Assembly: GCA_964036295.1 (NCBI GenBank)
Contig: OZ038469.1
Location: 17,975,591 to 18,039,590 of the forward strand
DNA from: Plumapathes pennacea
Taxonomy: Eukaryota; Cnidaria; Anthozoa; Antipatharia; Myriopathidae
Reading direction: 5' to 3'
Length of the DNA stretch: 64,000 nt
Below the pieces are notes generated by a model. The model did no database searches. It worked only from the letters and a program-made list of their open reading frames with translations, and was not told where the DNA came from. Shown piece after piece: positions 25,681-57,597 of this stretch (position 1 is the stretch's first letter; the number at the start of each line of letters is the position of its first letter). The position numbers and the translations under genes were made by a program.

Positions 25681-27792
25681 ATGGACGGCACTTCTGTTAG
25701 TATTTCCTCGTACTGTGTGGTGTGGACCTTGGCTCTTGTGATGTGCTTTGGTGTTCAGTGCTCTACCTCATCCCAGGTGATTGGAGTCAGTGATGTTTTC
25801 GAAGTCGTGAACGGCGAAGTCACCTTTCAGCGAAATTTAGTGGATGACAAAGGAGACGTTTGGTCACGAAAGTCGGACCTGAGCAAGTTGGAAGTGCTAA
25901 CCAACGATCTAACTTTCAGTGTTCCCCCCGAGAGCTGCGTATTACAGAGAATGACAGGTCCGCTTGGTTCAGACAATAAACTACTTGAGTTTCAAGAGAA
26001 ACACCAGGTGAAGTATGGTGCAAATTATTTAATTGATTACAAGAGTTACATGCATTCACGCAAAGTGAATCCGCAATTCAACTAATTTAATTTTATGTAT
26101 ACATTATGTGGCGTGATGGGCGACTGTGCCTTTCGATCATTGCAAATAGCTTGCAGTCTTGTCAATTGCCAGCAAACATCCCAGTTAATATTTCACCCAA
26201 GAATTCACAGAATTTGAAGTCGCGCCGCAGATAACAGCAACACGTACGACGTTTGCAAAGAAACGTAAAATTTGTTTTTGAAGCATTGGACGTTTGATGT
26301 TACGTTTTGTTCAATCTTGTCGAAGAGGTGGTTTTCCTTTTCCTGACCGAAACTGACGCTTATAAAAAAGACCTGTTGATTATTTTCCTAGTTTAAATTT
26401 TACTATTTCGGATGTTGACCCCGAGTTAATACTATTTCCGGTATGTTCGCATCGCGCCGCCAAAAGCGGTTTCTCAAATAGATCCAAGAGACAACAGTAT
26501 TTACCGCGGTTACTTGTGAATTCTGTATTTTTCGGCTGAGGGAACATATTGCGTTTAGCAACAAAATGCAAAGAAAAACTCAAAAAGAAAAAAGTTAGGA
26601 ACAACAATGAGCATTGGATAATGAAAGACATTCGTTTCGAAAGTGCAAAAGGTCCCTACAGCGCGGCGTGTTCTTGGTATGTATCGTGCTCGATATTGGA
26701 ACTGAATTTCCTTTATTTCTCTGGATCCCAATCACTTTCATTTGTTTTAATGCAGGAAGCAGGATTTCGTCATGTTTACCGCGACTCCATGGCAGTCAGA
26801 CCGCACTGTGCGTTTGATATTGTCATTCCACACGTTAATGTGTCAAAGGAGCCCGCGCGCTTGAAAGGCGAGTTCTGTTTGCCGGAGCACATTAGCGCAG
26901 GTGCGGCTGTTGGCGACTACGATAACGACGGACTGCAAGACATTTTCTTCGCTGTGTTTCATGGAAGGAGCATTCTTTACAGGAACAATGGTATCTCCAT
27001 GCATGCTATCTGCCCTAAGTTTCATTTCCATCGATTAAGTACGAAACTAGACAAATTTAACAATATTTCTCGGACTCTTACAGGAAATGGCATATTCACT
27101 GACGTCACAGAAGATGCAGGCGTGGGGCCCAGTTCCTTTGCTAATGGCGCTGGGTGGGTGGACGTGGACCAGGACGGGGACCTGGACCTGTATGTGACGT
27201 CAGTCGGCGCCTCACGTCATCACTTGTACATCAACTACGGTGGGCACTTCCGGGAGGAAGCCGAGCAGCGAAACTGTTCCATGCGGTTTACTAATAACAG
27301 AAAGCTGTCGGGAATGACGCCGAACTTTGGAGATTTTGATAATGACGGATTTGTTGACATCTATGTGTCTGAGTGGATTCTGCGCAGTACAGGACAAGTA
27401 AGGGCGCCTTTATTGCGTCTTCAGTTCTCCATTATTCATTTCCTCATCGTCAGTTTTGATTGGTTGTCGTTTTGTTGCAGCCTTCTGCCTCTAGACTGCT
27501 GAGGAACAAAGGCTACAACGCTCCAGGGTAAGTGATCACATGACCGGGCGTGCGCTTTGACACTCAATCGTATTAAATATTGCTAAGTTCTGGTCGCCAT
27601 GTAGGATTTGACGCACGACAGAATAAAGCGTACAGCTTACAGAGGAGAGTCGTTGACCCTCTTGTCGATCTGATCTGAATCAGGGAGTGATGCAGACCAG
27701 AATTCTTATTCCTTCGCCTCTGTATTCTTTTCTACTTTGAATAAGGGAGTGATGCAGACTACAGTTCTCTGTTTTTCTTTTTTTTGCTTTTG

Positions 27793-27824
<32 letters not shown>

Positions 27825-30389
27825 TCAGCTATTTTGAAGACGTCACGGATCACGCCGGTGTCAACATGGACATTTACAGTGAGCGGCTGAACCGAGGTAC
27901 ATATACGTTCGGCGCGTCTTTCACGGTGAGTAACTCTATAACAAGCTACCAGCTTTGTGAAAGCCATAAGGCTTGTTATTTTGTTGTTGTTGTCGGCAAT
28001 TAGAAAGTTTACGTTTATGTACCTTCCGGTCAAACCACGGTCAACAAATGAATACCTGATTGGTATTCTCTTTATTATAGGATTTTGACAGTGACGGCTG
28101 GCCAGAGTTACTGGTGACCGCGGACTACGGCGACAGTCGAATGTTCTGGAATAACGGGGACAACACGTTTCAAGAATGCACATCGTACTGTGGCCTGCGA
28201 GGCGAACAGGTAATGTACGCTTTAGACTGACCCAGAAGGATGGGGAGGGGAGGGAGGGGAGGGTGCGTATTACAATTAAGGTTCTAATGTCCGTTGTTCA
28301 TCAGGACGCGATGGGTCACGCTATTGGTGACTGGGACAACGATGGCATGCTGGACTGGTTTTCCAGCGCAATCTTTCATAACGGAACCGATTGCGCCGTC
28401 TCAGGCTGCACGTTTGGCGATAAAGGAAACAAACTTTTCCGAAACCTGGGGAAACGAAACTTTGAAGACTCAACCGACAAGGTACGCCTCTCACAACCCT
28501 GCCGGTTCCTCACGTCTGAGGCGTTATATTTTGTTCTTATATTCTTTTCGTTTGTCTGTCCTTGCGCCTATCCATTTACTCCTCCGTTGTACTGTCTGTC
28601 TGTTTGTCTGTCTGCTTGTCCAGGCTGGTGTCCAGAATGGTGGTTGGGGGTGGGGTGCGGCTTTCCTGGACTTTGACAACGACGGATATCTCGATATTGT
28701 CATGACAAACGGTGAGCAACATTAGAACTGGAACAAAGTTTGTGGTGCTGTGCTGATTTAAACTAATTTTCAAGTATCGTTTTTTATCATACTTTGTTTT
28801 GTTAAAGCCACTGCGAGCTGTAGTAATAATGTGACGTCACGGCCGCTTTAGGTTTCGACACCCCGTCCACGACTGTCGACGACATGTTTCAGAAAGGGCG
28901 CATGCGCCTTTGGAAGAACTTGGGTCCTGGATACAACGGAAAAACAGAAGAGGTTTGTTCAATGACGCTCGTTCATGTACGTGACACCGGTACCTGCCTG
29001 TCAATGTATTTGAACGTGACGCCTTTATCATCGTAAGTTTCTGTCTCTTTATTTATATCTCCGTAAGCTTTGTTGTACGCCTCCCTGTGCCTGAAACTCT
29101 CTTGGTGTCTATTTTTAAGTCTGATGTTTCAGTATTTTGTTAATCTGTCATCTATTGCCGATGAAGCCAGCGGAACCCGATATAGTGATCACGTGTTCTT
29201 TACGTTGTCAGGTGTCACGTGCTTTTGGGCTGAACTCCACAAGTCAGGGGCGTGGTCTGTTGAAGTGGGACTATGATGGTGAGCTCACTTCTCCAATCTT
29301 TTGTGTCCAGTTGCCCTGGTCGCCATTTTATCACGGACGTGTGTTGCATTCATCTGGTCGCCATTTAGATTACTGTGTTTCTTCTGTCTTCCTCTGTGTC
29401 AGATGACGGTGATGAAGATGTGGTCATATGCAACAATGTTGGATCACCTTTTCTTTACAACAACCTTGGAGGAAACCAAAACAAATCGATAAGAGTTCGG
29501 GTCAAGCACCGGTTAGTTCCCAGGAAAGCAGGAGCAATCTCGCTGCTGATTTGCGTGAGACACTGCGGGCTTATCCTGTCTGTTTATAATTTGTTGTTGT
29601 TGTTGGTGTTGTTGTTGTTGTTCTGACCACATTGTTTTGTTGTAATCTCAATATACTAAGATGCGCGAAGGAACAATGGAAGCTTTGTGACAGCTACGGT
29701 GCTCGCGTCCAAGTTATCTCGGCTGATAATCATACACAGGTAATTTTATTTTACACAATCACACACAGGTATTACTAATAATTAAACACACTTATTAGTC
29801 CTAATCACACACAGATATTACTCATAATCACACACACGTATTACAAATAAGCACACACAAGTATTACTCATAATTACACACGCGTATTACTTATAATCAC
29901 ACACACGTATTACAAATAATCACACAGAAGTATTTCTCATAATCACACACAAGTAGTAGAGCTATTTATCGATGCATTACGTCACCAGTCAGTAAACACA
30001 TGGGGTCCATCGGACAACTAACCAGTCTTTAGTGTTTCAGTTATTCTGATGATGAATCAGTCAGGATATAATATTGGTAAAAACTATATCTGCGGGGCAA
30101 TCATGCATCCATTCATTTATCACGAGACAGTTGGTTAGCAGGCAGCGAGACATCTATTCGCCTTCAACAGCATCGAACAGGTACTATATTTTATCGCACT
30201 TTTTTCTCAGACTCAAGAGATTGGCTCCAGTACACACTTCCTTGGACAGAGCGAGATGACGGCTCATTTTGGACTGGGGAGAGACAACAGAAATGTAACG
30301 GTGCGCGTAAGCTGGCCAGCGGTCGGCAAACAAATTACGTACACAGAAGTTCCTCCCAACACGAGGCTGCGAGTCGTGAGACCGGACGA
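25681..30389 (+). other. Paralogue A exons 1-13: signal peptide, propeller and ASPIC domain
   Basis: Exons: 25681-26007, 26756-26990, 27084-27397, 27481-27527, 27829-27925, 28081-28209, 28305-28481, 28624-28711, 28852-28952, 29212-29278, 29403-29511, 29661-29739, 30211-30389. Motif blocks: DYDNDGLQD (exon 2), DVDQDGDLD and DFDNDGFVD (exon 3), DFDSDGWPE (exon 6), DWDNDGMLD (exon 7), DFDNDGYLD (exon 8), DYDDDGDED (exons 10-11). The ASPIC part ends with [19 protein letters not shown] in exon 13. Exon 7 has a two-cysteine insertion ([11 protein letters not shown]) that paralogue B lacks. Confidence 0.9.
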
Positions 30390-33300
30390 GTAAGTACTCA
30401 GTACCAACACGAACCGACCAGTAGCATGTCGCTATCTTATCCCTCTCCATGCCTCGATTTGCAGATCGAATTCGCCGGAACAGAACGAGACGTTCTCAAA
30501 TTTGAAACAATGTCCATCTTTACGAGTTGTGGCCATTGACGAACAGGTAACCTCGCCCCACCCAGCACTTGTTTTTTTTTATTATTATTTATTTATTGCA
30601 ATTGGCCATTGGACGAGATGCCTGATGCCTTTGTTTCAAAAGATTTAGTACGAATCCTTCTTTTGTGAAAAATATTTTTCATTTTTATGCACATTAAATT
30701 CATCTTCATAAGAAAGGCTTTGCTTCAGGCCTCGTTGTGAAGCACGGAGCAGTATGTACTTTATATATGACAATATGTAAAATGCAAAGGGTAGTTGTTT
30801 TCAACATGCAGGTCGACATTCGCTTGCTTTTAAATAAAACCTCAAAAAATTAAACGACCGCCTCTCATTCAGAAACACTAAAATTTTATGACAGCAATTA
30901 ACAAAAGAATGGTCGCTCTCCACTTTAATTCCAGCCTTCACACGGGCTTGTGACGATTAACCCGGACGGCAAATCCGTGGCGTTTCAACCGAAGCCGAAC
31001 TCAAATGTTCGCGAGCTTCAAACACAAATATTCGTCTACCAAGTGGCCCTTGTACCAAGCCCAGACGGAGAACGGCTGACCTCAAATGTCACCAGCTATA
31101 TCCAGTTTTTGTTTAACTCAACTGACAAACCAGGGGAAAAAGAATGCATAAGCGGGAGGAGAGTAGGACCCACTCCTACTCCGACAGATGCACGGTAAGC
31201 TATTCCTTCCATGATATTCGCTCTGTAGTTTCATCGACCGTGCGTTATTTTGTTAGCATTTCTATCTCCACATTTTTTTCCGTTGTAGGAGACTGGACGG
31301 AATATCCAACAACAAACGCCACCCCTGGTGGGGTGCTGCCATGGAAACCCTGACACGTGACTTCGCACCAGCGTACGCTGACCGTGTGGCAATGCCCGCT
31401 GGCGCATGTTCTACTGAGCAGAGAGAACAGAAGACGTGTCGGTATCCAGTGGAACTCGGGGGGTTGGGTTCCAATCGTCCTTCGCCAAGGAACATTAGTA
31501 ACGTATTATTTCACCAGGTGAGTTTATTCTGAAACAAATGTTGAAAACATCTCAAGTTTGTACTGATCTGCTCGCCATCCCTGCCTTTTTCAGGTTGAAT
31601 CCCGCATCAGTGTAAGGCGTCTGAATGACTTGCATGCACATTTTGGTCAGGTAAGCACAACAAAATGTCTGTCGTTCAGTTTGTCCTGTGTCTTATGTGT
31701 CATTTAGTTTGTCTTGTGTGTAATGAGCGTTCATTGTTCAGTTTGTCTTCTGTCTCATATTTTCGTCTTTCAGTTTTTCTTTTATTACCCTTATGATTGA
31801 TGTTCTTGTTACCTTCTCTGGTTCTCAGTTTCTCGCTCATGATACGGATTTTTCAAGCCCCCTGCCTCGGTTCGAGTTCCAAAGTGTATTGAATGACGTG
31901 TGGCTGCCCATCAAAGTACCGAAGGTTAGCGCATGTGCTTAGTTCGTGTCCTGCTGACCAAACTGAAGATCACTGTTCTGTTTGCAATGTTCCACCATTC
32001 CGAGTATGGCGCGATTCAAACAATCCGTATAAAACTAAACTAAACTAATGTTTCTTGGCAGGGAGATATTAATTTTGATCCGCGTAACCGAGGGACTGAG
32101 TACTTGCCTTTTGTGCGCTCAACTTATAACAGGTGAGTAGTTTTGTGTAATCTCCATTTTCTGTGCGCATGCCCGTAGTTTTGAAAAAAGTGAGCCATTC
32201 TTATCTTATTTTTACGAAGCTGAGTACAGCTCACATCTAGCTCCACCAGTGAGTTCTTGTTCTCATCAGCACATTCCTTATCGAATCTGTATTTTTATAC
32301 AGGTGCTCCGGTCGATATTTCGGATCTCCTCGTGAACAAATCAATAAACTCTCGTCGTTTATCGATGGTTCTATGATTTATGGGCAAACCAAAGGAAGAA
32401 ATAAACATCTGCGAACATTGAAACAAGGCAAGATGAAACTTGGACCCCATAACATATTGCCGGTATGTAACCTACATGCATTTGACGAGATAATACTCGC
32501 TGATTCAATAATCATCTTTTTATTCAACTCCAGAAAAACACTATGGGCCTGGCAAACGACAATGTGGTGGGGCGCGAACAAAGCATACTTTTTGTCGCAG
32601 GAGACACTCGTGTGAATGTGCAGCCGGGTTTAATTGCACTGCACTCACTGTTTGTGCGTGAACACAATCGTCTGTGCGACGAGTACCTCAAGGATCACCC
32701 CCAGGTGGGTCTGAATACGTTGATTTAGTTCCATCAAACCAGGGGCACGCGCCCCTGCCCCTCCCCTCCCTCTATACTAATACTTCATGTTAACCTGTAG
32801 GCTAGCGATGAGGAAATCTTTCAGTTCGGTCGTCGTATCGTGATCGCCGAGCTTCAATCAATAACTTTTCGTGAGTACCTACCGGCGCTGCTCGGGGGTA
32901 CCGAACACTTTCCGGTGTACCAGGACTACAGAGAAGAGGTCAACGCGGGCTTCGGGAATGCTATGGCAACTGCAGCTTTTCGGTAAGACGTGTCAAAAAC
33001 CTTTCCGCACGAATGTGATAGTCAATCAATTCCCTTCTTTGTACGGCACCGGACAGAATTTTAAGTGTGTTGGAAAGTTCCCTTTACATTCTGTACAGTG
33101 TTTTCATCGTGCTGATTATGGTGTGTAGAGCTTGTGAAACAAAAGTTCATTTTATGTTTTATGTCTTTTTCCCTCTCCAAGGTTCGGCCACAGTCAAGTG
33201 AACAACATGTTGTGGCGCCTGGAAGAAGACGGGAGCATCTCTCGCTACGGTCACCTCCCCCTGAGGGACGCTTATTTTGCCCCTGAACGCGTGGAGCGGG

Positions 33301-35036
33301 AGGGAGGGTTGGAACCGATATTACGTGGAGCTGTCAATCAAGCAGCGCAGGAAATTGACGCTAAGGTGATGACAACCTTTTTATAGAATCAACATATCGT
33401 CTTATTTATTTAAATCGAATATTTCCTCTCATGTATTCTGTTCCTCACTTCCGGCCCCAGTCTCTTTTTCTTGCATACACTTCACTTGGATTTAGCACAT
33501 AAGTCTGTCATTATATAGCAATAAGGCGATAAATATTATTACTTTTAGTGATCATGCAGGAGAAAGCACTTGTGAGAGTCTAGAAATGAGCGTTTTCCGG
33601 GTGAGCAGTCCTTCGAACTCCCGTCATAGTTCGGCTTTGCTGGGCCAATTATATGGGCCTACGGATTTCTCACACCTGGCCACGCCTATGCTAGGGTAAA
33701 TAATATGTTTTGTATCTTCCTGTGACTCACAAGATGGTAGGTGATCTGCGTAACGTGTTGTTCCCGGTGGGTCGACACAATGGCCTGGATCTAGCGGCCT
33801 TGAACATACAGCGGGGCCGAGACCACGGGCTGCCCGACTACAACACGGTCAGGATGCATGTGGAGGCTGGGGGTGAGTTAGATTGAAGCATTGGAAATGT
33901 TTAGGTGGCAAAAGAAATGTATGAACGAGAAACAATCCCCTGATTTTTAAAGTTCAATAGCACAAGTAAGACCACAAAATTGCGCATAGAAACAAACGAG
34001 CGAGCAACAGTGGCATTTCATGTTGATCTCATTGCATTCTGGTATGGGAACAACACCAATTTAAGAAAGCAGCCAGTCAAGCGGTGGTGTCTTAGGAGAC
34101 TGACCACTTGCGAGTGATGAGGACACAAAGTTCATTGGCTCCCGCCCCGCCTTCTTTTTTCTCTCAGCGATTACAAAGTTCACGGACATCACAAATGACG
34201 CAGAAGTGGCGTCCAAGTTGAAGGAATTGTACGGCGACGTGAACCAGATTGACTTATGGGTAGGCGGGCTGGCTGAGGACCACGAGCCAGGAAGTGAGCT
34301 AGGACCGACATTTAGAAAGTAAGGCTATCCTTTCCATATATGGGAGTATGTACCTTTACTAAAGGTTTCATTGCCACTGTCTATCTTGTAAAAAGTTTCC
34401 AACAAGAGCTTGTCGTTCTACGCTTCATTTCAAAGACTCTGTTTTGATTCTTTTCACTCTTTTTTAGGATTCTCGTGACAAACTTCTTACGACTCAGAGA
34501 TGGCGACCGGTTTTGGTACGAAAGAGTTTTGTCCGATGAGGTGCGTGAGTCTGCCAGATACTGAGTTGGGGTTACGTTATAGATAGACAATATATTGTTT
34601 TATTTTCCAGGAAATCCGCATGGTTCATGGTCTGACCCTGAGTCGGATCATCAGTTTGAATACAGACTTCCAAAGCGTTCCTAACAACGCATTCTTTTCA
34701 TCGCTTTACTGCGCAGCCGTCAAAAATCACCAGTGCGTTCTCCGTGACGTCACTTGCCACGACCTGAACACGTGCCAAGCCATCAACTCGAGGCTGAGGA
34801 ACACAGTTACTCAACTCAGAAATGTCTGTCACAGAAATGCATCAAATTCACAGGAGATGCCGGCCACACAGAATTTGGAAGTGGCTCTCGTCGTTGGTGT
34901 GGTGATCGCGTGTTTGCTGATTTTGTTGATGGTGGTTATTTTTGTAGTTCGTCGATTGAAACGGACTCAACTTTCAGTTGAGGAAGTGGATGTATTGCCC
35001 ATGCGTGACAAGTGCTTTCAAAATGAGGCTGTTTAA
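25681..35036 (+). CDS. CRTAC1-like beta-propeller / ASPIC / haem peroxidase transmembrane fusion, paralogue A, 1409 aa
   Basis: Twenty-seven exons join in one frame of 4230 nt. Order: signal peptide (1 to about 28); seven DxDxDG calcium-type FG-GAP/VCBS motifs (residues 163, 214, 271, 341, 392, 458 and 525), which fits a seven-bladed propeller; an ASPIC/UnbV domain (about 545-650); a linker; a full animal haem peroxidase (about 764-1300); a transmembrane helix (1359-1381); and a 28-residue cytoplasmic tail. The first half resembles CRTAC1 (cartilage acidic protein 1). Peroxidase residues present are distal Gln859 and His863 ([10 protein letters not shown]), catalytic Arg994 (AGDTR), proximal His1089 (RFGH) and its partner Asn1171 ([12 protein letters not shown]). 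The two carboxylates that esterify haem in myeloperoxidase are Ala862 and Val997 here. Expected topology is type I, with both catalytic and propeller parts outside the cell or in a vesicle lumen. Substrate and function are unknown. Confidence 0.92.
29757..29960 (+). repeat. Minisatellite in intron 12 of paralogue A
   Basis: About seven or eight degenerate units of about 28 nt built on TAATCACACACACGTATTAC. The matching intron of paralogue B lacks the array. Confidence 0.8.
30465..35036 (+). other. Paralogue A exons 14-27: linker, haem peroxidase, transmembrane segment and tail
   Basis: Exons: 30465-30546, 30935-31194, 31289-31517, 31594-31650, 31829-31924, 32062-32132, 32303-32462, 32534-32704, 32801-32982, 33182-33365, 33734-33872, 34168-34318, 34468-34540, 34611-35036. 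The intron between exons 17 and 18 falls inside the distal-site motif (FGQ / FLAHD). Exons 23 and 24 use CAAG-type acceptors with weak pyrimidine tracts, as do the matching exons of paralogue B. The membrane-proximal segment has three cysteines ([16 protein letters not shown]) that are missing from paralogue B. Confidence 0.9.
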
Positions 35037-40056: not shown

Positions 40057-41043
40057 ACGTAATTGACTTCGCTAAACAACTCGAGATGCGGCCAGTGAAT
40101 TGCTCGTTACTCGTGTGTAAAAGTTAACTGCATCCCATCCAAACTCAACACCATTTGGCTCTGTGGAATAGGCACGGATAAACTGGATTTTCGGGAACGA
40201 TTTTGGCTCGCGTTCACCGCGGAAGCTTTGAGAATAGCCGTAAACAAATATTTGATGGTACCGCTGTCGCCGATAAGTATTTAGTCCCGACGAAACTTTC
40301 TGTGGCGACACGAAATACTTTTGGGAAGATAACAGGGCGAAAACAGAAACCAAAGCTACGGTGAGCTTTAGCCGTAAAACAATAACGCTTTATGCTTTAC
40401 TCTGTACATGACATCTGTTGCCTCATAAAATTCTTTTATAAAATTCATAAAATGTTTCTTTCATTCGATCATGTAGTCTTTGTTTCGCAATGTTCATTAA
40501 ATACCAGAAATGAAAAATATACCGAAATAATTCTGAGGATTGAATTTGCAGTCACAAATGACTGAACACACTGTGAACAAAACCGCAATAATATTGTAAA
40601 CGTCTCTCGTGTGACATTCCTCGCTTTCAATTTTATATTTGTTACAGAGCACGAATACTCGAAAGCCTGATAGAAGAAACGTATTGAGTTAATAAAAGAA
40701 AACACATAAGTAGTGAAGCGAAGGCTGGATTAATCGTGGCCTCTGATTAGAAATATGAGTCAAGGTCAAACTGTCATAATCGATTGTGCATAAAAAGATA
40801 TGTCAGGCACTCTCAAGATGCAGGGTCGCTCAACCTTTAAGAAGCAAGTGTATGAGTGTTGTAATAATAATTTTTAGTTTAATCAAGGTGTCAAAAGCCA
40901 TGTTCTCTATACTGTGTGATATTTTTATGGTGAGAAATTGGAAGTCTCTCTTGGGAGTTCCGCTCTTGTCCCCTACTTTCCATTTTATATTCTGGTCTTG
41001 ACCCAACTCACGCCGCGAGCTCACTGGCAAGGCCAGTCTAGTT
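40057..41043 (-). repeat. Left arm of about 1-kb inverted repeat (CTAGACTGG element, minus orientation)
   Basis: This is the reverse complement of 45564-46582, with scattered mismatches and small indels. It ends at 41040 with the complement of the element start (CCAGTCTAG). An arm fragment of the CGAAGACCCC family abuts it at 41042-41125. No protein-coding frame is conserved between the copies. Confidence 0.75.
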
Positions 41044-42815: not shown

Positions 42816-42819
42816 TCAT

Positions 42820-44476
42820 GACAAGTGACTGTGTAAATCAATTGGACACCTTGAAGCAGCAGAGAAACTTGGCTGAAAGGCTGTGACTCTGTGAAACATA
42901 TTTTTGTTTCTTGATGCTTCATTAGGAACTAAAAAGCGTTTGATGTTTTTCAGATAAAAAGTTTTTTCATAACAATTGTATGTTCGATCAAATGAACACC
43001 TTGAAGCAGCAGAGGAGCTTGGCTGAAAGGCTGTGACTCTGCGAAACATATTTTTGTTTCTTGATGCTTCATTGGGCACTAAAAAGCGTTTGATTTTTTT
43101 TTTCAGATAGAATTCGTTTTCATAACAATTGTATGTTCAATCAAATGAACACCTTAAAGCAGCAGAGGAGCTTGGCTGAAAGGCTGTGACTCTGCGAAAC
43201 ATATTTTTGTTTCTTGATGCTTCATTGGGCACTAAAAAGCGTTTGATTTTTTTTTTCAGATAGAATTCGTTTTCATAACAATTTTATGTTTAATCAATTG
43301 GACACCTTGAAGCAACAGAGGAACTTGGCTGAAAGGCTGTGACTCTGTGAAACATATTTTTGTTTCTTGATGCTTCATTGGGTACTAAAAAGCGTTTGAT
43401 ATTTTTCAGATAGAATTCGTTTTCATAACACTAAATTGTATGTTTAATCAATTGGACGCCTTGAAGCAACAGAGGAACTTGGCTGAAAGGCTGTGACTCT
43501 GTGAAACATATTTTTGTTTCTTGATGCTTCATTAGGAACTAAAAAGCGTTTGATGTTTTTCAGATAAAAAGTTTTTTCATAACAATTGTATGTTCAATCA
43601 AATGAACACCTTGAAGCAGCAGAGGAGCTTGGCTGAAAGGCTGTGACTGCGAAACATATTTTTGTTTCTTGATGCTTCATTGGGCACTAAAAAGCGTTTG
43701 ATTTTTTTTTTTCAGATAGAATTCGTTTTCATAACAATTGTATGTTCAATCAAATGAACACCTTAAAGCAGCAGAGGAGCTTGGCTGAAAGGCTGTGACT
43801 CTGCGAAACATATTTTTGTTTCTTGATGCTTCATTGGGCACTAAAAAGCGTTTGATTTTTTTTTTCAGATAGAATTCGTTTTCATAACAATTTTATGTTT
43901 AATCAATTGGACACCTTGAAGCAACAGAGGAACTTGGCTGAAAGGCTGTGACTCTGTGAAACATATTTTTGTTTCTTGATGCTTCATTGGGTACTAAAAA
44001 GCGTTTGATATTTTTCAGATAGAATTCGTTTTCATAACACTAAATTGTATGTTTAATCAATTGGACGCCTTGAAGCAACAGAGGAACTTGGCTGAAAGGC
44101 TGTGACTCTGTGAAACATATTTTTGTTTCTTGATGCTTCATTAGGTACTAAAAAGCGTTTGATGTTTTTCAGATAAATTTGTTTCCATAACAGTTGCATG
44201 TCCAACCAATTGGACACCTTGAAGCAGCAGAGGAACTTGGTTGAAAGGCTGTGACTCTGTGAAACATATTTTTGTTTCTTGATGCTTCATTGGATACTAA
44301 AAAGCGTTTGATATTTTTCAGATAGAATTCGTTTTCATAACAGTTGTATGTTTAATCAATTGGACGCCTTGAAGCAGCAGAGGAACTTGGCTGAAAGGCT
44401 GTGACTCTGCGAAACATTATATTGTTTCTTGATGCTTCACCGGGTACTAAAATAAGAAGCTTTTGATCTTTTTCAG
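42820..44476 (+). repeat. Tandem array of about 152-bp units with a 609-bp higher-order period
   Basis: The landmark GGCTGAAAGG (or TTGAAAGG) recurs at 42871, 43021, 43173, 43328, 43481, 43631, 43783, 43936, 44090, 44239 and 44389, so there are 11 units of 149-155 bp. Unit-specific variants recur exactly 609 nt apart: an AAAAAGTTTTTTCATAACAA variant at 42957 and 43566, and an ACTAAATTGTATG variant at about 43429 and 44038. This gives a four-unit higher-order repeat. Most units read TTTTTCAG, then a frame ending KQQR(S/N)LAERL-stop. The last, partial unit runs into the candidate exon at 44477. Confidence 0.9.
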
Positions 44477-44628
44477 ATAGAATTTGTTTTTATAACAATC
44501 TGTGTTTAAAATCAATTGGACACCTCGAAACAGCAGAGGAATGTTTAGTTTCCCAGGCAAAGAAAGAAAATCCAGACGACAGGCCAACTGTCGATGAACT
44601 TGCTCGCTTTCTTACCGAATACATTTAG
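44477..44628 (+). pseudogene. Candidate terminal exon of a protein kinase (C-lobe end), probably an orphan fragment
   Basis: After an acceptor-like ATCTTTTTCAG, one frame stays open for 152 nt to TAG at 44626-44628. It ends AKKENPDDRPTVDELARFL followed by TEYI. The DDRPT-x-x-E-L pattern followed by a hydrophobic helix is typical of subdomain XI at the end of protein kinase domains. No catalytic loop, DFG or upstream kinase exon was found in the window. I treat it as a fragment, although a real gene with distant exons cannot be excluded. Confidence 0.35.
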
Positions 44629-45442: not shown

Positions 45443-45445
<3 letters not shown>

Positions 45446-45563: not shown

Positions 45564-46582
45564 GAACTAGACTGGCCTTGCCAGTGAGCTCGCGGCGTGA
45601 GTTGGGTCGAGACCAGAATATAAAATGGAAAGTAGGGGACAAGAGCGGAACTCCCAAGAGAGACTTCCAATTTCTCACCATAAAAATATCACACAGTATA
45701 GAGAACTTGGCTTTTGACACCTTCCTCTTGACACCTTGATTAAACTAAAAATTATTATTACAACACTCCCACCCTGCATCTTGAGAATGCGTGACATCTT
45801 TTTATGCACAATCGATTATGACAGTTTGACCTTGACTCATATTTCTAATCAGAGGCCACGATTAATCCAGCCTTCGCTTCACTACTTATGTGTTTTCTTT
45901 TGTTAACTCAATACGTTTCTTCTATCAGGCTTTCGAGTATTCGTGCTCTGTAACAAATATAAAATTGAAAGCGAGGAATGTCACACGAGAGATGTTTACA
46001 ATATTATTGCGGTTTTGTTCACAGTGTGTTCAGTCCATTTGTGACTGCAAACTCAATCCTCAGAATTATTTCGGTGTATTTTTCATTTCTGGTATTTAAT
46101 GAACATTGCGAAACAAAGGCTACATGATCGAATGAAAGAAACATTTCAACAGGCAATGTACGATAAGCAGAAGAATGTTATGAGGCAACAGATGTCATGT
46201 ACAGATTATAAATCGCCATTGTTTTGCGGCTAAAGCTCATCGTAGCTTTGGTTTCCGTTTTCGGCCTGTTGTCTTCCCAGAAGTATTTCGTGCCGCCACA
46301 GAAAGTTTCGTCGGCCGGACTAAATATTTAGCGGCGACAGAGAAATTTGCAATCCCCCAGCGGTATTCATCAAACATATGTTTACGGCTATTCTCAAAGC
46401 TTCCGCGGCGAACTTAAGAACGCAAGCCAAAATCGTTCCCTAAAATCTATTTTATCCGTACATGTTCCACAAAGCCCAACGGTGTTGAGTTTGGATGGGA
46501 TGCAGTTAACTTTTACACACAAGTAACGAGCAATATTCACTGGCCACTCGAGTTGTTTAGCGAAGTCAATTACATACATACA
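45564..46582 (+). repeat. Right arm of about 1-kb inverted repeat (CTAGACTGG element, plus orientation)
   Basis: Starts CTAGACTGGCCTTGCCAGTG and is the reverse-complement partner of 40057-41043. It ends in GTTGTTTAGCGAAGTCAATTAC and then a CATA microsatellite (46571-46610). It is non-coding. Confidence 0.75.
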
Positions 46583-46774
46583 TACATATTATTACATACA
46601 TACATTATCTTATTTCTTTCATGTACTATAATTGGTCAGTAATTATTATGCAAAGTTTCAAAACAGTCACCGCAACTTCATTTTCAATGGAATCACCTTA
46701 AGGCGTTATTCCAGGAGCTTCATGAACTACATTGTTATGCTGCTATTTTTATGTGATGCGTAAGAACCTTTAAG

Positions 46775-48192: not shown

Positions 48193-48236
48193 CTATCATA
48201 TGGAAACCAGGCTTAACAGGATACTCTTGTAGCAAC

Positions 48237-50540
48237 ATGAGCGGCACGCGTGTCAGCATTTCCTCGTGCTGTGTGGTGTGGACCTTGGCTCTCGTCTTTG
48301 GTGTTCAATACTCTACCTCATCCCAGCTGAGTGGAGTCAGTGACGTTTTCGAAGTCGTGAACGGCGAAGTCACCTTTCAGCGAAGTTTAGTGGATGACAA
48401 AGGAGACGTTTGGTCACGAAAGTCGGACTTGAGCAAGTTAGAAGTTCTAACCAACGATATTACTCACAATGTGACTCTCAAGAGCTGCGTACTACAGAAA
48501 GTGACAGAACCGCTTGGCTCCAATGATAAACCACTTGAGTTTCAAGAGAAACACCAGGTGAAGCGCATATTGTTTGATTGTTTACTTACTGTCAAGAAAT
48601 AGACTGTAACGTTCTTTTGATTAAAATAAGAATTAACCCTCCCTGGGTTTGTTTATTTTTATATTTTTATGTCGTTTTCTATTATGTCGACTGAAGTTGA
48701 GTTGTTATTTCCATATTCGCAAACAAAAGAAATGACCTCATCAATAATAGAGTGGATAATGAGAAAATGGTTTCATTGGTGTACAAAAGTTCGCCTGCGA
48801 AACAAACTAAAAGTCAGTGTCAAAATAAAGAAGGCAGTGGAACAGAGGCTCACCAAGCGACCTGTCTGTGTTCCCAAGAAGCTATTTTCTAGTAGAAGTT
48901 AGTAACTCTTTCCCACATCTAACATATAGTATACTTGTTGTCATCTCATCTACTAAAATAGGCCCCTCGTCCCCCCTCTCCCCTACAAAGTCAATTTAAA
49001 AAGACACCGGGGGCTTATTAGAGCTATAAAATAAATGGGTTTCGGCATGAATATGTTCGTTCCACTCTTGGCGAGGGGTAATGATCGGAAGGCATTCCGT
49101 TCATTCCGGAATAGGAATCTGTCACCCAAAACTCCATTTTGCAAACAAACCTTGTAGTCTCAATCCTGGAATAGTTAGGGTGCATTATTTTGGGACTGTT
49201 CCAGAATAAGTGGTGTGTTCTTTCTGCTCAATATTGGAACTGAATCTCCTTTATTTCTCTGGATCTTAATCACTTTGTTTGTTTTATTGCAGGAGGCAGG
49301 ATTTCGTCATGTTTACCGCGACTCCATGGCAGTCCGACCGCACTGCGCGTTTGATATTGTCATTCCACAGGTTAATGTGTCAAAGGAGCCCGTGCGCTCG
49401 AAGGGCGAGTTCTGTTTGCCGGAGCACATTAGCGCAGGCGCGGCTGTTGGCGACTACGATAACGACGGACTGCAAGACATATTCTTCGCTGTGTTTCATG
49501 AAAGGAGCGTTCTTTACAGGAACAACGGTTTGTCAATACATGCTATCTGCCTTAAGTTCACTTTTCATATCCATCGATTAATTACAAAAAATTTAACCTA
49601 TATTTCTCGGACTCTCACAGGAAATGGCATGTTCACTGACGTCACAGAAGATGCAGGCGTGGGGCCCAGTTCCTTTGCTAATGGTGCTGGGTGGGTGGAC
49701 GTGGACCAGGACGGGGACCTGGACCTGTACGTGACGTCAGTCGGCGCCTCACGTCATCACTTGTACATCAACTACGGTGGGCACTTCCGGGAGGAAGCCG
49801 AGCAGCGAAACTGTTCTATGCGGTTTACTAATAACAGAAAGCTGTCGGGAATGACGCCGAACTTTGGAGATTTTGATAATGACGGATTTGTTGACATCTA
49901 TGTGTCTGAGTGGAATCTGCGCAGTACAGGAGAGGTAAGGGCGCCTTTATTGTGCTTCCAGTTCTCTATTATTCATTTCCTCTTCACCATTTTTAATTGG
50001 TTGTCGTTTTGTTGCAGCATTCTGCCTCTAGACTGCTGAGGAACAAAGGCTACAACGCTCCAGGGTAAGTGATCACATGACCGGGCGTGCGCTTTGACAA
50101 AACTCAATTTGTTTTCTTTTTGACTGATGATTATGTAGGATTTGACAAAACTCAATTTGTTTTTTTTCTGACTGATGTAGGATTTGACACGACAAAATAA
50201 AGCGCACTGTTTACACGGAACAGACGTCGACATTACATACGATTCTCCTGTCGATCTGAACTGCGCCTGGGTCATTTAAAAAATCATGGCTGAAAGAATA
50301 AAAAGATAGAAAGAGAAAGAGGGAATGATGCATACCATAATTCTTATTTCTTGGCTCATTTCTTTTCAGCTATTTTGAAGACGTCACGGAAGACGCCGGT
50401 GTCGATATGGACATTTACAGTGAAAACAAACGGCTGAACCGAGGTACATACTCGTTCGGCGCCTCTTTCACGGTGAGTAACTTTATAAAAAGTTACCAGT
50501 TGATAGCCAAAAGACTTTTTATTCTGTTGTTGTTGTTTTT

Positions 50541-50599
<59 letters not shown>

Positions 50600-53055
50600 C
50601 ATTATTATTATTAATATTATTATTATTTTTGTAGTTGTCAGCTTGGGTACTCTTAGCTTATGTACCTTCCCATAAAACAGTGGTCAGCGGATGAATAACC
50701 TGATTGGTCACCTACATTTTCTAGGATTTTGACGGTGACGGCTGGCCAGAGTTACTGGTGACCGCGGACTGCGGAGACAGTCGAATGTTCTGGAATAACG
50801 GGAATAACACATTTCAAGAATGCACATCGAACTGTGGCCTGCGAGGCGAACAGGTAATGTGCGCTTTAGACTAACCCAGAGGGACGGGAAGGGGAGGGTG
50901 CGCATTACAATCAAGGTTCTAATGTCCGTTGTTCATCAGGATGCCATGGGTCACGCAATTGGTGACTGGGACAACAATGGCTTGTTGGATTGGTTTTCCA
51001 GCGCAATCTCCCATAACGGAACCGGTAAAGGAAACAAACTTTTCCGAAACCTGGGGAAACGAAACTTTGAAGACACAAGTGAGAAGGTACGTCTGACACC
51101 CTGCCAGCCCCTCATGTTTGAAGGTTGTTTTGTGTTTTGTGTTTCATGAGTTTATCGTTCAGTGTCTCTCCTGTCATTCAGTTTGTTAGGTTCTTATGTG
51201 TGTGTCATTGTTTATGTTGTATCTAATGCGTGTCTTATGTGTCACTTCAGTTTGTCTAACCCTACCACCTTTCTTGTGTCAACCAATTCACTGGTGTTCT
51301 GCAATGTATGTCTATCTGCTTGTCCAGGCTGGTATCCACAATACTAGCTGGGGTTGGGGTGCGGCTTTCCTGGACTTTGACAACGACGGACATCTCGATA
51401 TCGTTGTGACAAACGGTGAGGAAATTCAGAACCATCCGAAAGTTTCGTGAGGTTTTGCTGAGAATAAACTAACTCTCAAGTGTCGTTTTAGGTCTATTTA
51501 TTATCATTATTATTTATTTGTTATTTATTTATTATAATCTGTTAACGCTACCACGACGTCACTTTTGTATCTTAGTCTTCATTCTTGTTGTTTCTCTGGT
51601 CGCTTTAGGTTTTGACACCCCGTCCACGACTGTCGACGACATGTTTCAGAAAGGACGCATGCGTCTTTGGAAGAACTTGGGTTCTGGATACAACGGAACA
51701 ACAGAAGAGGTTTGTTCAATGACGCTCATTCATGTACGTGACGTCGGCACGTGCCTGTCAGTGTGTTTGGATGATGTTAGGGAGTTTGTTCATGTTTGTC
51801 ACGTGATACAGTGTATTTGGATGAGGTTTGCTTGGTGTCATTGCACGTTTTCGTGTCAGTGTTCGTACCCGTGTCTGCTTCTCTGTGTTCACACGCATTT
51901 TCATCATCGTAAGATTTTGTCTCTATATTCATATCTCCGTAAGCCTTGTTGTACGCCTGAGACTCTCTTGGTGTGTATTTTTAAGTCTGTCGTTTCCACA
52001 CTTGTTGGTTAGTAGTCTTATCCTGCACACATCTAAAAAATTTCTATTGCCGAAGAAGCCAGTTGCGCGGAACCCGATGTGGTGGTCACGTATTTTTACG
52101 TCGTTAGGTGTCACATGCTTTTGGGCTGAACTCCACAAGTCAGGGGCGTGGTCTGCTGAAATGGGACTATGATGGTTAGCTCACTTCTTCAATCTTTTGC
52201 ATTCACCTGGTCGCCATTTTATCATGGACGTGTGTAAACTACTGTGTTTCTTATCTTCCCCTATGTCAGATGACGGTGATGAAGATTTGGTCATATGCAA
52301 CAATGTTGGATCACCTTTTCTTTACAACAACCTCGGAGGAAACCAAAACAAATCGATAAGAGTTCGGGTCAAGCACCGGTGAGTTCCTAGCAAAGCAGGA
52401 GTAAGCTTGCTGCTGAGCTGCGCAAGACACTGTGGGCTCATCTTGTCTGTTTTTAATTTGTTGTTGTTGTTCTAACCACATTGTTTTGTTGTAATCTCAA
52501 CATATAAAGATGCGCGAAGGAACAATGGAAGCTTTGTGACAGCTACGGCGCTCGAGTCCAGGTTATCTCGGCTGATAATCACACACAGGTATTCTTACTA
52601 AACACATTATCACTGCATTATGTCCCCGGCCAGTGAACAAGTCGGGCTTATCGTAAATTCATCAGTCTGTTGTTGTTTTTTAGTTCTTCTGCAGATAAAT
52701 CAGTCGGGTGAACACGACATTAATAAAAAATTTGTCCGCTTGGCAGTCAATTTTATGCATGCAGCCATTTATTTCACGAGAAAGTTGGTTAGCTAGCAGG
52801 CAAAGAGAAAACCATCGCATGCACCTCCTTCAACAGCACCGGCCAGCTACTAAGTTTTATGGTACTTTTTTCTTAGACCAAAGAGATTGGCTCCAGTACA
52901 CACTTCCTTGGACAGAGCGAGATGACGGCTCATTTTGGACTGGGGAGAGACAACAGAAATGTGACGGTGCGCGTAAGCTGGCCAGCGGTCGGCAAACAAA
53001 TTACGTACACAGAAGTTCCTCCCAACACGAGGCTGCGAGTTGTGAGACCGGACGA
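48237..53055 (+). other. Paralogue B exons 1-13: signal peptide, propeller and ASPIC domain
   Basis: Exons: 48237-48557, 49293-49527, 49621-49934, 50018-50064, 50370-50472, 50725-50853, 50940-51086, 51328-51415, 51609-51709, 52108-52174, 52270-52378, 52510-52588, 52877-53055. Exon 5 has two extra codons compared with A. The coding sequence is very close to A in exons 2-4 and 8-13. Introns are alignable mainly near their ends. Confidence 0.9.
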
Positions 53056-56000
53056 GTAAGTACTCAGTACCAACACGAACCGACTAATAGCATGTCGCTA
53101 TCTTATCCCTCTCTATGTCTCGATTTACAGATCGAATTCGCCGGAGCAGAACGAGATGTTCTCCAATTTGAAAGAATGTCCATCTTTACGAGTTGTGGCC
53201 ATTGACAAACAGGTAACCTCGCCCCACCCTCATCCCCACCCCTTGCTTTCGTTACAATTAGACGTCCGCCATTTGTTGCTTGTGTGCAACAATGAGTAAG
53301 CACGGAACAGTATGTGCATCACATATGACATTACATAAGACGCCCTCCACTTCATTTTCAGCCTTCACACGGAAATGTGACAATCAACCCAGACGGCAAA
53401 TCCGTGTCATTTCAAGTGAAGCCGAACTCAAATGTGCGCGAGCTTCAAACACAAATATTCGTCTACGAAGTAGCCCTGGTACCAAGCCCAGACGGAAAAC
53501 CACTGACCTCAAATGTTACCAGTTATATCCAGTTTTCGTTGAACTCAACTGACAAACCAGAGGAAAAAGAATGCATGAATGGGAGGAGAGTAGGACCCAC
53601 TCCTACTCCGACAGATGCACGGTAAACTATTCCTTCCACGATATTCGTTCACTTTTTCTGGTCTCATTGACTGTGCGTTGTTTTTTGTAGAATTTCGATC
53701 TACACACATTATTTTTCCGTTGTAGGAGACTGGACGGAATATCCAACAACAAACGCCATCCCTGGTGGGGTGCTGCTCTGGAAAGCCTGACACGTGACTT
53801 TACACCAGCATACGCTGACCGTCTGGGAATGCCCGCTGGCGCATGTTTTGCTGAGCAGAGAGAACAGAAGACGTGTCGGTATCCAGAGGAACTCGGGGGG
53901 TTGGGTTCTAATCGTCCTTCGCCTAGGAACATTAGTAACGTATTGTTTCACCAGGTGAGTTTACTCTGAAACAAACGTTGAAAACATCTCAAGTTTGCAT
54001 TGATCTGCTCGCCATTCCCGCCTTTTTCAGGTTGAATCCCGCATCAGTGCAAGGCGTCTGAGTGACATGCATACAAATTTTGGTCAGGTAAGCACAACAA
54101 AATGTATTTCCTCTCTCTGTTAACAGCATGTGTTTATAGTCCGTTTGTGTTTATGCCAGTGCCTTTGTCTTGTGTATCAATGTCTAATCTGTTATGTGTG
54201 TATCGTTCAGTTTGTTTTGCGTCTTATGTGTCGTCCAATTTCTCTTGTGTCTGAATGTGTGTTATGAATGTGTTGTTCCGGTTGACTTTCGTGTAGTGTC
54301 TTGTGAGTATTTTGTTCATTTTTTATTGGATCTGTTGTCTTATGAGTGTGCCAATCGATTAGTCTTGTGTTACATGTTTAACGTTGAGCTTCTTGTCACG
54401 TTTCTATTCTCAGTTTCTCGTTCATGATACGGATTTGACGGGTACCTTGCCTCGGAATAATTCCCAGTTCCAAAACGACGTGTGGCTGCCCATTACAGTA
54501 CCCAAGGTTAGCGCATGCGCTTTGTGTGTCCTGCTGACAAAACTGACGATCTTTCTTCACTTTTCAAAGTTTCACGACATGATGCATGCTTTATAGTAAC
54601 AACCCACAAAGCTCAAAACAAAACTAAACTAAATGCTCCTTGTCAAAAATGCATACCTATGTTCACAAAACACGACGTTTAAATTGTTCAGGGAGATGTC
54701 CATTTTGACCCGCGCAACCGAGGGACTGAGTACCTGCCTTTCATGCGCTCAGTTTATAACAAGTGAGTAGTTTTGTGTCATCTCCATCTTACTCGAGTTA
54801 TTCCCTGTGCACATGCCCGTGGTTTGTATTTCACATAACCTTACGTTTCATAAAAAGCGACCGATTTCTATCTTGTCTTTGTCCAGCTTGGTACATCTCG
54901 ACAGTAACCTACCCGGCCTCGTCTATGAGTATTTGCACCCATAAGCACATTCCTTATGGGATCCGTATTTTTTTAAAGGTGCTCCGGTCGATTTTTTGGA
55001 TCTCCTCGTGAACAAGTCAATAAAATCTCGTCGTTCATCGATGGTTCTGTGGTTTATGGGGAAACTGAAGAAAGAAATAAACATTTGCGAACTTTCAAAC
55101 ATGGCAGGATGAAACTTGGACCCCATAACATATTGCCGGTATGTGCCCTACGCGGGTATAGTATGGTACAGTACTCGCTGATTGAAGTACATTTTTATTT
55201 ATTTATTTTTTATTTTTTTACCAGAAAAACACCATGGGCCTCGCAAACAGTAATCCGATGGGGCGCGACCCAAGCAGATTATTTGTCGCAGGGGACACTC
55301 GTGTGAATGAACAACCGGGTTTAATTGCACTGCATTCACTGTTTGTGCGTGAACACAATCGTCTGTGCGACAAGTACCTCAAGGATCACCCCCAGGTGGG
55401 TCTGAATACGTTGATTTAGTTCCATCAAACCCGGGTTTTCTGTCTGTCTACACGCCCCTACTTTTGTACTAATACCTTTATGTTAACCTGTAGGCCAGCG
55501 ATGAGGAAATATTTCAGTTCGGACGTCGTATCGTGAGCGCCGAGATTCAATCGATAACTTTTCGTGAGTACCTACCGGCGCTGCTCGGAGGTACCGAACA
55601 CTTTCCGACGTACCAGGGCTACAAGGAAGGAGTTAACGCCGGCCTCAGCAATGCTATGTCAACTGCAGTTCTCCGGTAAGGCATCGTCAAAAATCTGACT
55701 CTTGGCCTTCTGCTTACTTTTTCGCAGAAATATTTAGTCATCCAACAAACTGCCGTTAACAAGTTGCGTCAAAACGCAGCTGAGAGATTAAGTGCATCGA
55801 AAAGTTCTCTGTGCATTCTATGACCTTTTTAAATTGTCTGATCATGGAGTGTGGAGTGTGAAAGCATGTGAAGCAATTTATTTTGTGTTCTTTTCTCTCT
55901 CCAACCTTAAAGGTTCGGCCACAGTCAAGTAAACAGCATGTTGTGGCGCCTGGAAGAAGATGGGAGCATCTCTCGCTACGGTCACCTCCCCCTGAGGGAC

Positions 56001-57597
56001 GCGTATTTTGCCCCTGAACGCTTGGAGCGGGAAGGAGGTTTGGAACCAATATTACGTGGAGTTGTCAATCAAGCGGCGCAGGAGATTGACGCAAAGGTAA
56101 TGACGTCATTTAGCCGACCCCTCTCTCTCTCTTGCTCGCTCGCTCGCACTTCAACTGGACTTGGAACATAGGTATGGGACTTTAGTGCAATATAAGGGTC
56201 TGTCTTGTGTCTAGTGTTTAACTTGCTGAATAGTTGTTTTGTATCTCTGTGACTCACAAGATGGTGGGTGATGTGCGTAACGCATTGTTCCCGACGAGTC
56301 GACACAATAGCGAGGATCTAGCGGCCTTGAACATACAGCGGGGCCGAGACCACGGGCTGCCCGACTACAGCGCGGTCAGGATGAACGTGGAGGCTGGGGG
56401 TGAGTTAGATTGATGGAAAGGATTACTCGAGCCATGCGTTTTGCTGACTGACGAAGTGCCAAGGGAAACAAACCTGTGATTGGACAAAGTTCACCATCAC
56501 AACAGAAAAACAACAAGCGAGCAAGTGTCTTTAATGTTCGTGCACTTAAATTGGTTGTATTTTGAAATATAACAACAAATTAATGAAACAAACAGCCAGT
56601 CAAACGATGCCGGGCGTTTTTAAGAGACATGCGAGTGAAGTTTATCGCAGAGCTCTCAACTGAGGTCATCTAGCTGTGACTCCTGCCCCGCCTTTTCTTT
56701 TTCTCTCAGCGATTACAAAGTTCACAGACATCACAAATGACACAGAAGTGGCGCCCAAGCTGGAGGAGTTGTACGGCGACGTGAACCAGATTGACTTATG
56801 GGTAGGCGGACTGGCTGAGGACCACGAGACAGGAAGTGAACTGGGACCGACATTTAGAAAGTAAGGTCAAGCTTTCCATTTATGGGAGTATGTACCTTTA
56901 CTGCAACTCAAAGTTTGAGGGTTTTGTTGGCTTCACTACACTGTCTATCGTTTAAAAAGTCCGGAGCACAGAAAAACAGTTACTAACAACGTCTTGTGGT
57001 TCTGCGATTCATTTCAGAGAATCCGTGTTGTTACAACTTCAGAGTAATCATTTTTATGAACATCGACAAGTTTGATCTTTATACTTTTTCTTTAGGATCC
57101 TTGTGAAAAACTTCTTACGACTCAGAGATGGCGACCGGTTTTGGTACGAAAGAGTTTTGTCCAATGAGGTGCGTGTGTATGCCAGATACTGAGTTATACA
57201 GGTTTACTTTATAGATAGACAATATATTTTGTTTATTTTCCAGGAAATCCGCATGGTTCATGGTCTGACCCTGAGTCGAATCATCAGTTTGAATACAGAC
57301 TTCCAAAGCGTTCCTAACAACGCATTCTTTTCGTCGCTTTACTGCGCAGCCGTCAAAAATCACCAGTGCGTTCCCCGTGACGTTAAGAATACAGCAGAAC
57401 CGGGACAGGAGATGCCTGCCAATCAACGTTTGGAAGTCGGTCTTATCGTTGGTATTGTGATTGCATGTTCGTTGATTTTGTTGATGGTGGCTGTATTCGT
57501 AGTTCGCCGATTGAGAGGGACTAAACTTCCAGTTCAGGATGTGAATGTATTGCCCATGCGTGGCAAATCCTTTCATAATGAGGCTGTTCAAGCCTGA
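48237..57597 (+). CDS. CRTAC1-like beta-propeller / ASPIC / haem peroxidase transmembrane fusion, paralogue B, 1374 aa
   Basis: Twenty-seven exons with the same boundaries and phases as paralogue A join in one frame of 4125 nt. The domain order is the same: signal peptide, seven FG-GAP/VCBS motifs, ASPIC/UnbV, linker, animal haem peroxidase, transmembrane helix and short tail. Peroxidase residues present are His in FLVHDTD (exon 18), Arg983 (AGDTR), proximal His1078 and Asn1160. Glu986 is present where paralogue A has Val997, so one of the two myeloperoxidase-type haem ester carboxylates is kept. The other (Asp) is Val. The fifth calcium motif is altered to DWDNNGLLD. Exon 7 is 30 nt shorter, losing two cysteines. 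The membrane-proximal segment is 24 residues shorter and loses three more. No stop or frameshift is present, so the gene looks functional. Confidence 0.92.
50545..50630 (+). repeat. (TTA)n microsatellite in intron 5 of paralogue B
   Basis: Nearly 90 nt of ATT/TTA trinucleotide, interrupted once or twice. It is not present in the matching intron of paralogue A. Confidence 0.92.
53131..57597 (+). other. Paralogue B exons 14-27: linker, haem peroxidase, transmembrane segment and tail
   Basis: Exons: 53131-53212, 53362-53621, 53726-53954, 54031-54087, 54414-54506, 54692-54762, 54979-55138, 55225-55395, 55494-55675, 55913-56096, 56261-56399, 56710-56860, 57096-57168, 57244-57597. The last exon encodes the end of the peroxidase domain, the helix VGLIVGIVIACSLILLMVAV and a tail ending HNEAVQA. 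Exon 20 uses a TTTAAAG acceptor and exon 23 a TTAAAG acceptor, both with A before AG. Confidence 0.9.

Follow-up and report, generated by a model that had tools for sequence, protein, structure and literature searches.

An apparent fusion of an ASPIC propeller to an animal haem peroxidase in tandem genes of the antipatharian Plumapathes pennacea

In the genome of the antipatharian Plumapathes pennacea (Cnidaria, Anthozoa; assembly GCA_964036295.1), a stretch of 64,000 nucleotides of contig OZ038469.1 (positions 17,975,591 to 18,039,590, forward strand; hereafter the window, in whose numbering coordinates are given) holds two tandem genes, here called A and B, where an FG-GAP propeller, an ASPIC/UnbV domain and an animal haem peroxidase follow one another in a single protein ending with a transmembrane helix. 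This propeller-ASPIC-peroxidase arrangement looks real, i.e., the sequence points to one unbroken coding fusion under purifying selection. The animal haem peroxidases known to us are peroxidasins, peroxinectins, enzymes of the myeloperoxidase (MPO) and lactoperoxidase (LPO) type, cyclooxygenases and dual oxidases. While the superfamily and both modules are familiar, the combination, the membrane anchor and the loss of haem-ester residues are undescribed, as far as the searches reach, in the openly licensed PubMed Central literature; an earlier interpretation drawn from the letters of the window (hereafter the sequence-only reading) knew of no described animal protein with this order, and none was found in this part-covered literature. 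Automatic architecture listings may nonetheless hold this order without description.

The exon models of both genes were rebuilt by hand and checked by script. Gene A (25681..35036, plus strand) comprises 27 exons encoding 1409 amino acids (aa), namely (i) exon 1 (25681..26007), encoding the N-terminal region with a hydrophobic stretch (aa 7-25) that is signal-peptide-like on the basis of hydropathy alone, (ii) exons 2-11 (26756..29511), encoding the FG-GAP propeller with seven DxDxDG motifs at aa 163, 214, 271, 341, 392, 458, and 525, (iii) exons 12-13 (29661..30389), encoding the ASPIC/UnbV domain (aa 576-643), (iv) exons 14-15 (30465..31194), forming the junction, where a weak immunoglobulin (Ig)-like match to Big_9 (aa 669-730) lies between ASPIC and peroxidase but under the Pfam cut-off, and (v) exons 16 to the start of 27 (31289..34694), encoding the haem peroxidase domain (aa 764-1296), after which come a transmembrane helix by the Kyte-Doolittle scale (34893..34949, aa 1363-1381), RRLKR and a short tail. 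Separated from it by 13.2 kb, gene B (48237..57597, plus strand) also has 27 exons, encodes 1374 aa and presents the same domain order; by alignment to A, its propeller corresponds to exons 2-11 (49293..52378) and its ASPIC/UnbV domain to exons 12-13 (52510..53055), followed by the junction with the Ig-like segment in exons 14-15 (53131..53621), the peroxidase in exons 16 to the start of 27 (53726..57327, the domain end being set by alignment to A) and a helix by hydropathy (57445..57501, aa 1325-1343). Above the Pfam cut-off, protein A matches An_peroxidase (494 bits), FG-GAP_3 (139 bits, in five stretches), UnbV_ASPIC (53 bits) and FG-GAP, while the NCBIfam search gave no match and no further pieces of gene A were found elsewhere in the window. 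In a first trial model of gene A, a 39-nt exon had been placed at 30142-30180; it was dropped, since a GT donor is missing at that place in B and the spliced protein can be aligned without this exon.

Several claims of the sequence-only reading can be judged on this structure. The two tandem 27-exon genes, each with an unbroken frame, were recovered as such, with GT-AG at every intron, the same intron phases in both genes and a single terminal stop in each; the span 25681-57597 begins where A starts and ends with the stop codon of B. The signal peptide and the single helix near the C end agree with hydropathy, which in both proteins places one strong helix, with basic residues after it, near the C end and a less pronounced hydrophobic segment at the start of the chain. 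The seven DxDxDG motifs per gene are exact in A, but B has six exact motifs and one DWDNNG. Describing the propeller as calcium-dependent seems reasonable from the seven Dx[DN]x[DN]G motifs.

The fusion itself is supported, in the first instance, by the comparison of the two copies, which are identical at 1202 of 1411 aligned protein positions (85%) and in which all 26 intron positions coincide. The ratio of non-synonymous to synonymous substitution (dN/dS), obtained by the Nei-Gojobori method with our own script, is 0.35 overall, i.e., 0.33 for the N-terminal part, 0.29 for the propeller, 0.04 for ASPIC, 0.33 for the junction exons 14-15, 0.37 for the peroxidase and 0.54 for the tail; with such a value, the junction exons look selected as coding sequence. 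It could be argued that the window holds two neighbouring genes, one CRTAC1-like and the next a peroxidase, which were duplicated in tandem, and a stop is indeed met in both copies when intron 14 is read through. This appears very improbable, however, since exons 14 and 15 are joined by phase-0 splice sites in A and B, the junction exons are under purifying selection and intron 14 spans just 388 bases in A and 149 in B, the latter leaving little room for the end of a gene and a new start; moreover, the frame entering exon 15 hits a stop 2 (A) or 11 (B) codons upstream with no Met, an unseen upstream exon being possible, and a diverged pair of genes, C and D, has the same order with other introns, the one before the peroxidase being 336 bases long in C. 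Given the identity of A and B, their overall dN/dS and this diverged pair elsewhere, the arrangement is not a matter of chance. The order of propeller, ASPIC/UnbV and haem peroxidase in one protein, as proposed by the sequence-only reading, is thereby upheld by Pfam on A, by the dN/dS values and by the C/D pair.

This second pair, absent from the sequence-only reading, as was the Ig-like segment, came from a search of the animal's own genome (290 Mb, 24 contigs), read exon by exon, with counts that are lower bounds. UnbV_ASPIC was found in at least four places, namely genes A and B and two on another contig, C9, and all four adjoin a peroxidase. Paralogues C (L013, C9:4200536-4206571) and D (L014, C9:4230874-4236880), both on the minus strand, are a diverged, intron-poor tandem pair with the order propeller-ASPIC-Ig-peroxidase; they share 98.7% identity and were each modelled as five exons joined in frame. 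By Pfam, C exhibits FG-GAP, ASPIC, Big_9 (42 bits, here above the cut-off) and An_peroxidase (506 bits), with ASPIC and Big_9 within one uninterrupted exon. BLASTP aligns A and C in a single alignment across the junction (464 of 1222 positions identical, 38%), whereas none of the four introns of C is shared with A, the nearest being 5 codons off and in another phase; the domain order was thus kept though the exon structure differs. As just 14 residues follow the peroxidase match in C, there is no room for a helix and tail. Lacking the helix as well as the proximal Asn described below, C and D are probably secreted and may have little classical peroxidase activity. Besides A-D, the FG-GAP_3 search of the genome pointed to at least one more locus, a 1435-aa frame on C9 that contains six matches. 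Of note, the genome also presents two large clusters of animal haem peroxidase matches at C6:9.85-10.07 Mb and 12.66-12.80 Mb, comprising 44 and 20, respectively, of the 103 matches listed.

Regarding its kinship, the peroxidase half, a member of An_peroxidase by the Pfam matches in A and C, is nearest to bacterial enzymes of the animal haem type. The peroxidase of A shares 41-42% identity with six of them (L017-L022) over 530-547 aligned positions, 35.6% over 520 positions with a peroxidasin-like gene of the same genome (L016) and 29-35% with more distant bacterial proteins (L023-L025); among profile matches in the PDB, 8s6c comes best (500 bits), before the Dictyostelium structure 6erc (395) and mammalian lactoperoxidases (318). 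A peroxidase tree was built from 24 rows, leaving out L019, by eye very like L017, and the partial L025, and taking L015 without its middle part. The four fused rows fall on one side of a branch with support 90/76, which is under the program's mark for firm support, and are joined with the Dictyostelium enzyme DdPoxA (6erc) at 89/87, while L016, L015 and LPO form a separate group at 100/100; the longest end branches are those of DdPoxA and LPO. This best tree places the peroxidase half with bacterial enzymes and DdPoxA and apart from the peroxidasin-like and lactoperoxidase rows, but the alternative grouping is not rejected by the approximately unbiased (AU) test (p 0.148).

The sequence-only reading had assigned this second half to the peroxidasin/peroxinectin type, with which it does share being an extracellular animal haem peroxidase of the sort that is often multidomain; the best tree does not support the assignment as worded, though the AU test does not reject an animal grouping. 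Peroxidasin (family 2) carries leucine-rich repeats and Ig domains alongside its peroxidase; no leucine-rich repeat or Ig I-set domain was found in A by Pfam. Peroxinectin (family 3) is described with a KGD integrin-binding motif (PMC4420034). KGD does occur in A (aa 891-893) and at the corresponding position of B, where C has EGD, but it sits within a VPxGD stretch common to the bacterial enzymes and may be due to chance. DdPoxA, joined to the fused rows in the best tree, is assigned by its authors to family 6 (PMC5787809), a family described as bacterial in origin from which enzymes of Amoebozoa and further protists descend (PMC4420034). Like gene B, it lacks the ester Asp and keeps the ester Glu, but it is a secreted monomeric enzyme (PMC5787809) with a 511-residue chain, and A, C, and D have also lost the Glu.

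The propeller half leads in a similar direction. Having the FG-GAP propeller followed by ASPIC/UnbV that is found in the CRTAC1 family, A was said by the sequence-only reading to be CRTAC1-like in its first half. CRTAC1 (PDB 9etn) is matched with E 2.8e-17 from A alone and 5.7e-29 from a six-row profile, but the kinship is not supported in that form, as the propeller-ASPIC part of A is far closer to five proteins of Planctomycetota (L048-L050, L052, L053; 37-42% identity, 254-367 bits) than to two joined stretches of human CRTAC1 (23%, 64 bits), the sole animal CRTAC1 compared. Identity is 32% to an Alteromonas protein, 30% to a Granulicella protein and 27% to a haloarchaeal protein. CRTAC1 is termed a calcium-binding matrix protein, whose EGF-Ca domain at the C end of human isoform A is missing from a fish Crtac1b (PMC8536980). 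By Pfam, no EGF families were found in A and C, and A adds a peroxidase and a transmembrane helix to what CRTAC1 has. The planctomycete proteins are for their part stand-alone, with FG-GAP and ASPIC in all four of the five that were scanned by Pfam, but with no peroxidase match in the same reading frame. Judged by sequence similarity, both halves have their closest counterparts in proteins that are encoded separately in certain bacteria. Propeller trees were computed with 13 rows, or with 10 rows once three long-branch rows had been left out, and contain long branches; holding the four fused rows together is not rejected (AU p 0.321), and a five-row planctomycete clade comes close to rejection (p 0.074). 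Since these trees do not settle the history, two separate fusions are compatible with the propeller data, but the peroxidase tree (90/76) and the shared domain order favour a single origin.

The joined state was also sought in bacteria, plasmids and viruses. Bacterial genomes were searched with the 1162-aa part of C from the propeller to the end (E 1e-40), with at most two candidates scored per genome, so that a fusion could be missed. Matches came from 84 of 1,174 sampled genomes, i.e., 5 of 395 Bacteroidota, 64 of 392 Planctomycetota and 15 of 387 from the phylum of an Akkermansiaceae locus, and among the matches listed none runs from the propeller into the peroxidase. Neither did eleven frames longer than 1,060 aa (six from Planctomycetota, five from the Akkermansiaceae phylum, the latter by BLAST alone) join an ASPIC propeller to a peroxidase, and where every candidate was scored, in nine genomes, the long frames of one (G004) gave propeller matches only. 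No propeller was seen in the frames read at nine bacterial peroxidase loci, two of which (L022, L025) run off the contig end, and no propeller-ASPIC fusion was seen for the animal-haem-type enzymes L017-L022 and L038-L041. Both halves do occur apart in some bacterial genomes, e.g., on two contigs in G503. In the planctomycete G594, a single frame of 2013 aa (L043) combines FG-GAP repeats with a haem peroxidase of the animal type, but this frame has no ASPIC match, contains seven HYR stretches and matches the query weakly in its FG-GAP part (E 3e-8). With plasmids, 82 records matched, none of the 30 listed having one place that covers 80% of C, and the annotated neighbourhood of the best peroxidase match showed no propeller gene. 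Viral contigs hold at least three propeller relatives (26-30% identity).

Two other kinds of bacterial architecture came to light among these loci. In two Planctomycetota frames, L044 (G524, 2735-6217, minus) and L045 (G742, 4341-7715, plus), the peroxidase domain seems to be circularly permuted: the stretch that corresponds to query positions 731-1148 precedes the one corresponding to 612-752 (L044) or 641-720 (L045), and each frame has two An_peroxidase stretches. The 1412-aa frame of L042 (G710, 2971-7206, plus) presents sub-threshold vanadium chloroperoxidase and PAP2 matches ahead of a haem peroxidase, so that haloperoxidases of two kinds may be combined in this protein.

Whether the peroxidase half works as an enzyme depends on its haem site, whose residues were taken from the alignment of the peroxidase tree, under position names that follow human MPO. 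All four fused rows have the Gln, distal His, catalytic Arg and proximal His, i.e., His863 (31838-31840), Arg994 and His1089 in A and His853, Arg983 and His1078 in B, while the proximal Asn is kept in A (Asn1171) and B (Asn1160) and replaced by Gly in C and D. A and B thus carry the four residues that the sequence-only reading listed (distal His, Arg, proximal His and Asn), but the ester positions have changed: in A, B, C, and D, the ester Asp is replaced by Ala (Ala862), Val (Val852), Ala, and Ala, respectively, and the ester Glu position reads Val (Val997), Glu (Glu986), Val, and Val. In the other 20 rows of the alignment, the ester Asp is absent just in DdPoxA (Ile) and the ester Glu just in the bacterial row L036, where the distal Gln and the proximal His are missing as well; of the 15 bacterial rows, among which one sequence occurs twice, 14 keep both ester residues. 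The pair is typical rather than universal, families 4 and 7 being excepted from the Asp motif (PMC4420034), and DdPoxA makes one ester bond through its Glu, with a redox potential lower than that of two-bond enzymes (PMC5787809). By analogy with DdPoxA, one haem ester bond would be expected in B and none in A.

The missing ester residues could alternatively signify a pseudo-enzyme, the peroxidase domain having turned into a binding or scaffold module. The ester Asp is absent from four copies out of four, the Glu from three and the proximal Asn from two, the dN/dS of the peroxidase (0.37) exceeds that of the propeller (0.29) and of ASPIC (0.04), and the peroxidase domain of dual oxidase, reported as mutated and inactive (PMC4420034), offers a comparison. 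This nevertheless seems unlikely to us: Gln, distal His, catalytic Arg and proximal His persist in every copy, and A and B keep the Asn as well. Of the four Ca2+-site columns examined, three are identical to LPO in these two genes and the fourth has Ser for Thr, and DdPoxA functions without the Asp (PMC5787809).

Taken as a whole, we think it reasonably probable that A and B are membrane-held, calcium-stabilised and H2O2-using ecto-peroxidases with weakened haem anchoring, made by fusion of bacterial-type parts. They would be type I membrane proteins, made via the secretory pathway and held by one helix. The propeller, loaded with Ca2+ in its Dx[DN]xDG loops, would form with ASPIC a rigid extracellular platform, this motif being said to bind calcium in diverse families (PMC3123361). 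Standing between this platform and the membrane, at the cell surface or in the lumen of a vesicle, the peroxidase would be held beside a partner bound by the propeller. H2O2 would oxidise the ferric haem to compound I, which would then take electrons from iodide, thiocyanate or phenol/tyrosine groups rather than from bromide or chloride, because a single ester bond at most would anchor the haem in B, and both of the usual bonds would be missing in A; for DdPoxA, oxidation is very fast with iodide and thiocyanate, poor with bromide and absent with chloride (PMC5787809). The products would take effect near the membrane, with microbes, proteins of mucus or matrix and the partner of the propeller as possible targets. 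C and D, which lack the proximal Asn and have little sequence beyond the peroxidase, would be secreted proteins with altered catalysis. As for the origin of the family, an ASPIC propeller would have been joined to a bacterial-type peroxidase, the simplest timing being ahead of the divergence of A/B from C/D.

Within this ecto-peroxidase account, a narrower choice of substrate can be contemplated, namely that the tethered enzyme cross-links matrix, as the sequence-only reading had suggested, or mucus by making dityrosine links or iodotyrosine in extracellular proteins at the cell surface; its odds overlap with those of the account itself, and we regard it as a possibility worth retaining, short of an even chance. 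The tether indicated by hydropathy is in keeping with it, as is a propeller from a family with matrix members such as CRTAC1 (PMC8536980). The chemistry of the peroxidase superfamily also fits.

A number of observations weigh against the ecto-peroxidase account or parts of it. Genes A-D were read from genomic sequence, and the lost ester residues could mean lost function. Forcing the fused peroxidases to group with L016, L015 and LPO costs 3.0 log units and is not rejected by the AU test. The propeller of A finds its paralogue C at 287 bits (37%) and planctomycete proteins at up to 367 bits, and the four fused rows come together in only 17% (13 rows) and 13% (10 rows) of the propeller-tree bootstraps. 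Looked for by eye in L013, the first exon of C/D was not found, which leaves their signal peptide unseen. Finally, A and C resemble each other only weakly in the N-terminal stretch and in the linker, where 7 and 36 of 1000 shuffles, respectively, did as well.

A more specific history may be put forward tentatively, and we rate it as rather doubtful. The whole gene, or its two halves, would have entered an anthozoan ancestor from planctomycete-like bacteria; it would have been intron-poor at first, since A/B and C/D share no intron position, after which introns would have been gained separately in each line, an anchor gained in one line and the covalent haem bonds lost, resulting in a surface peroxidase with non-covalent haem, of a kind not known among the animal enzymes characterised so far.

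Around the two genes, the window contains some further features. Between A and B lies a satellite-like array (42814-44541; 153-base unit, 11.4 copies, 90% matches), flanked by the arms of an inverted repeat of about 1 kb (40059-41043 and 45565-46573; 87% identical). Upstream of A, frames on the plus strand at 21541-23343 exhibit D-glutamate cyclase domains (PF07286, PF14336), and at 58863-60695 on the minus strand a 610-aa uninterrupted frame contains an entire Na/H exchanger domain (240 bits). Elsewhere in the assembly, the mitochondrial contig C24 (17.7 kb), read with code 4, shows COX3, COX1, ND4L, COX2, ND4, ND6, and ATP6 in this order on one strand within the 9.9 kb read, and a LAGLIDADG frame splits COX1, which fits a hexacoral. 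The GFP family, sought as a sign of Anthozoa, gave no match in this genome, but neither did it in any control genome, so that this result carries no information.

The family would offer a natural test of what the haem ester bonds do, with A having neither ester residue, B having the Glu only, and C and D having neither and no proximal Asn, all beside DdPoxA. If the bacterial kinship of both halves is true, bacterial-type extracellular parts would have been built into an animal surface enzyme.

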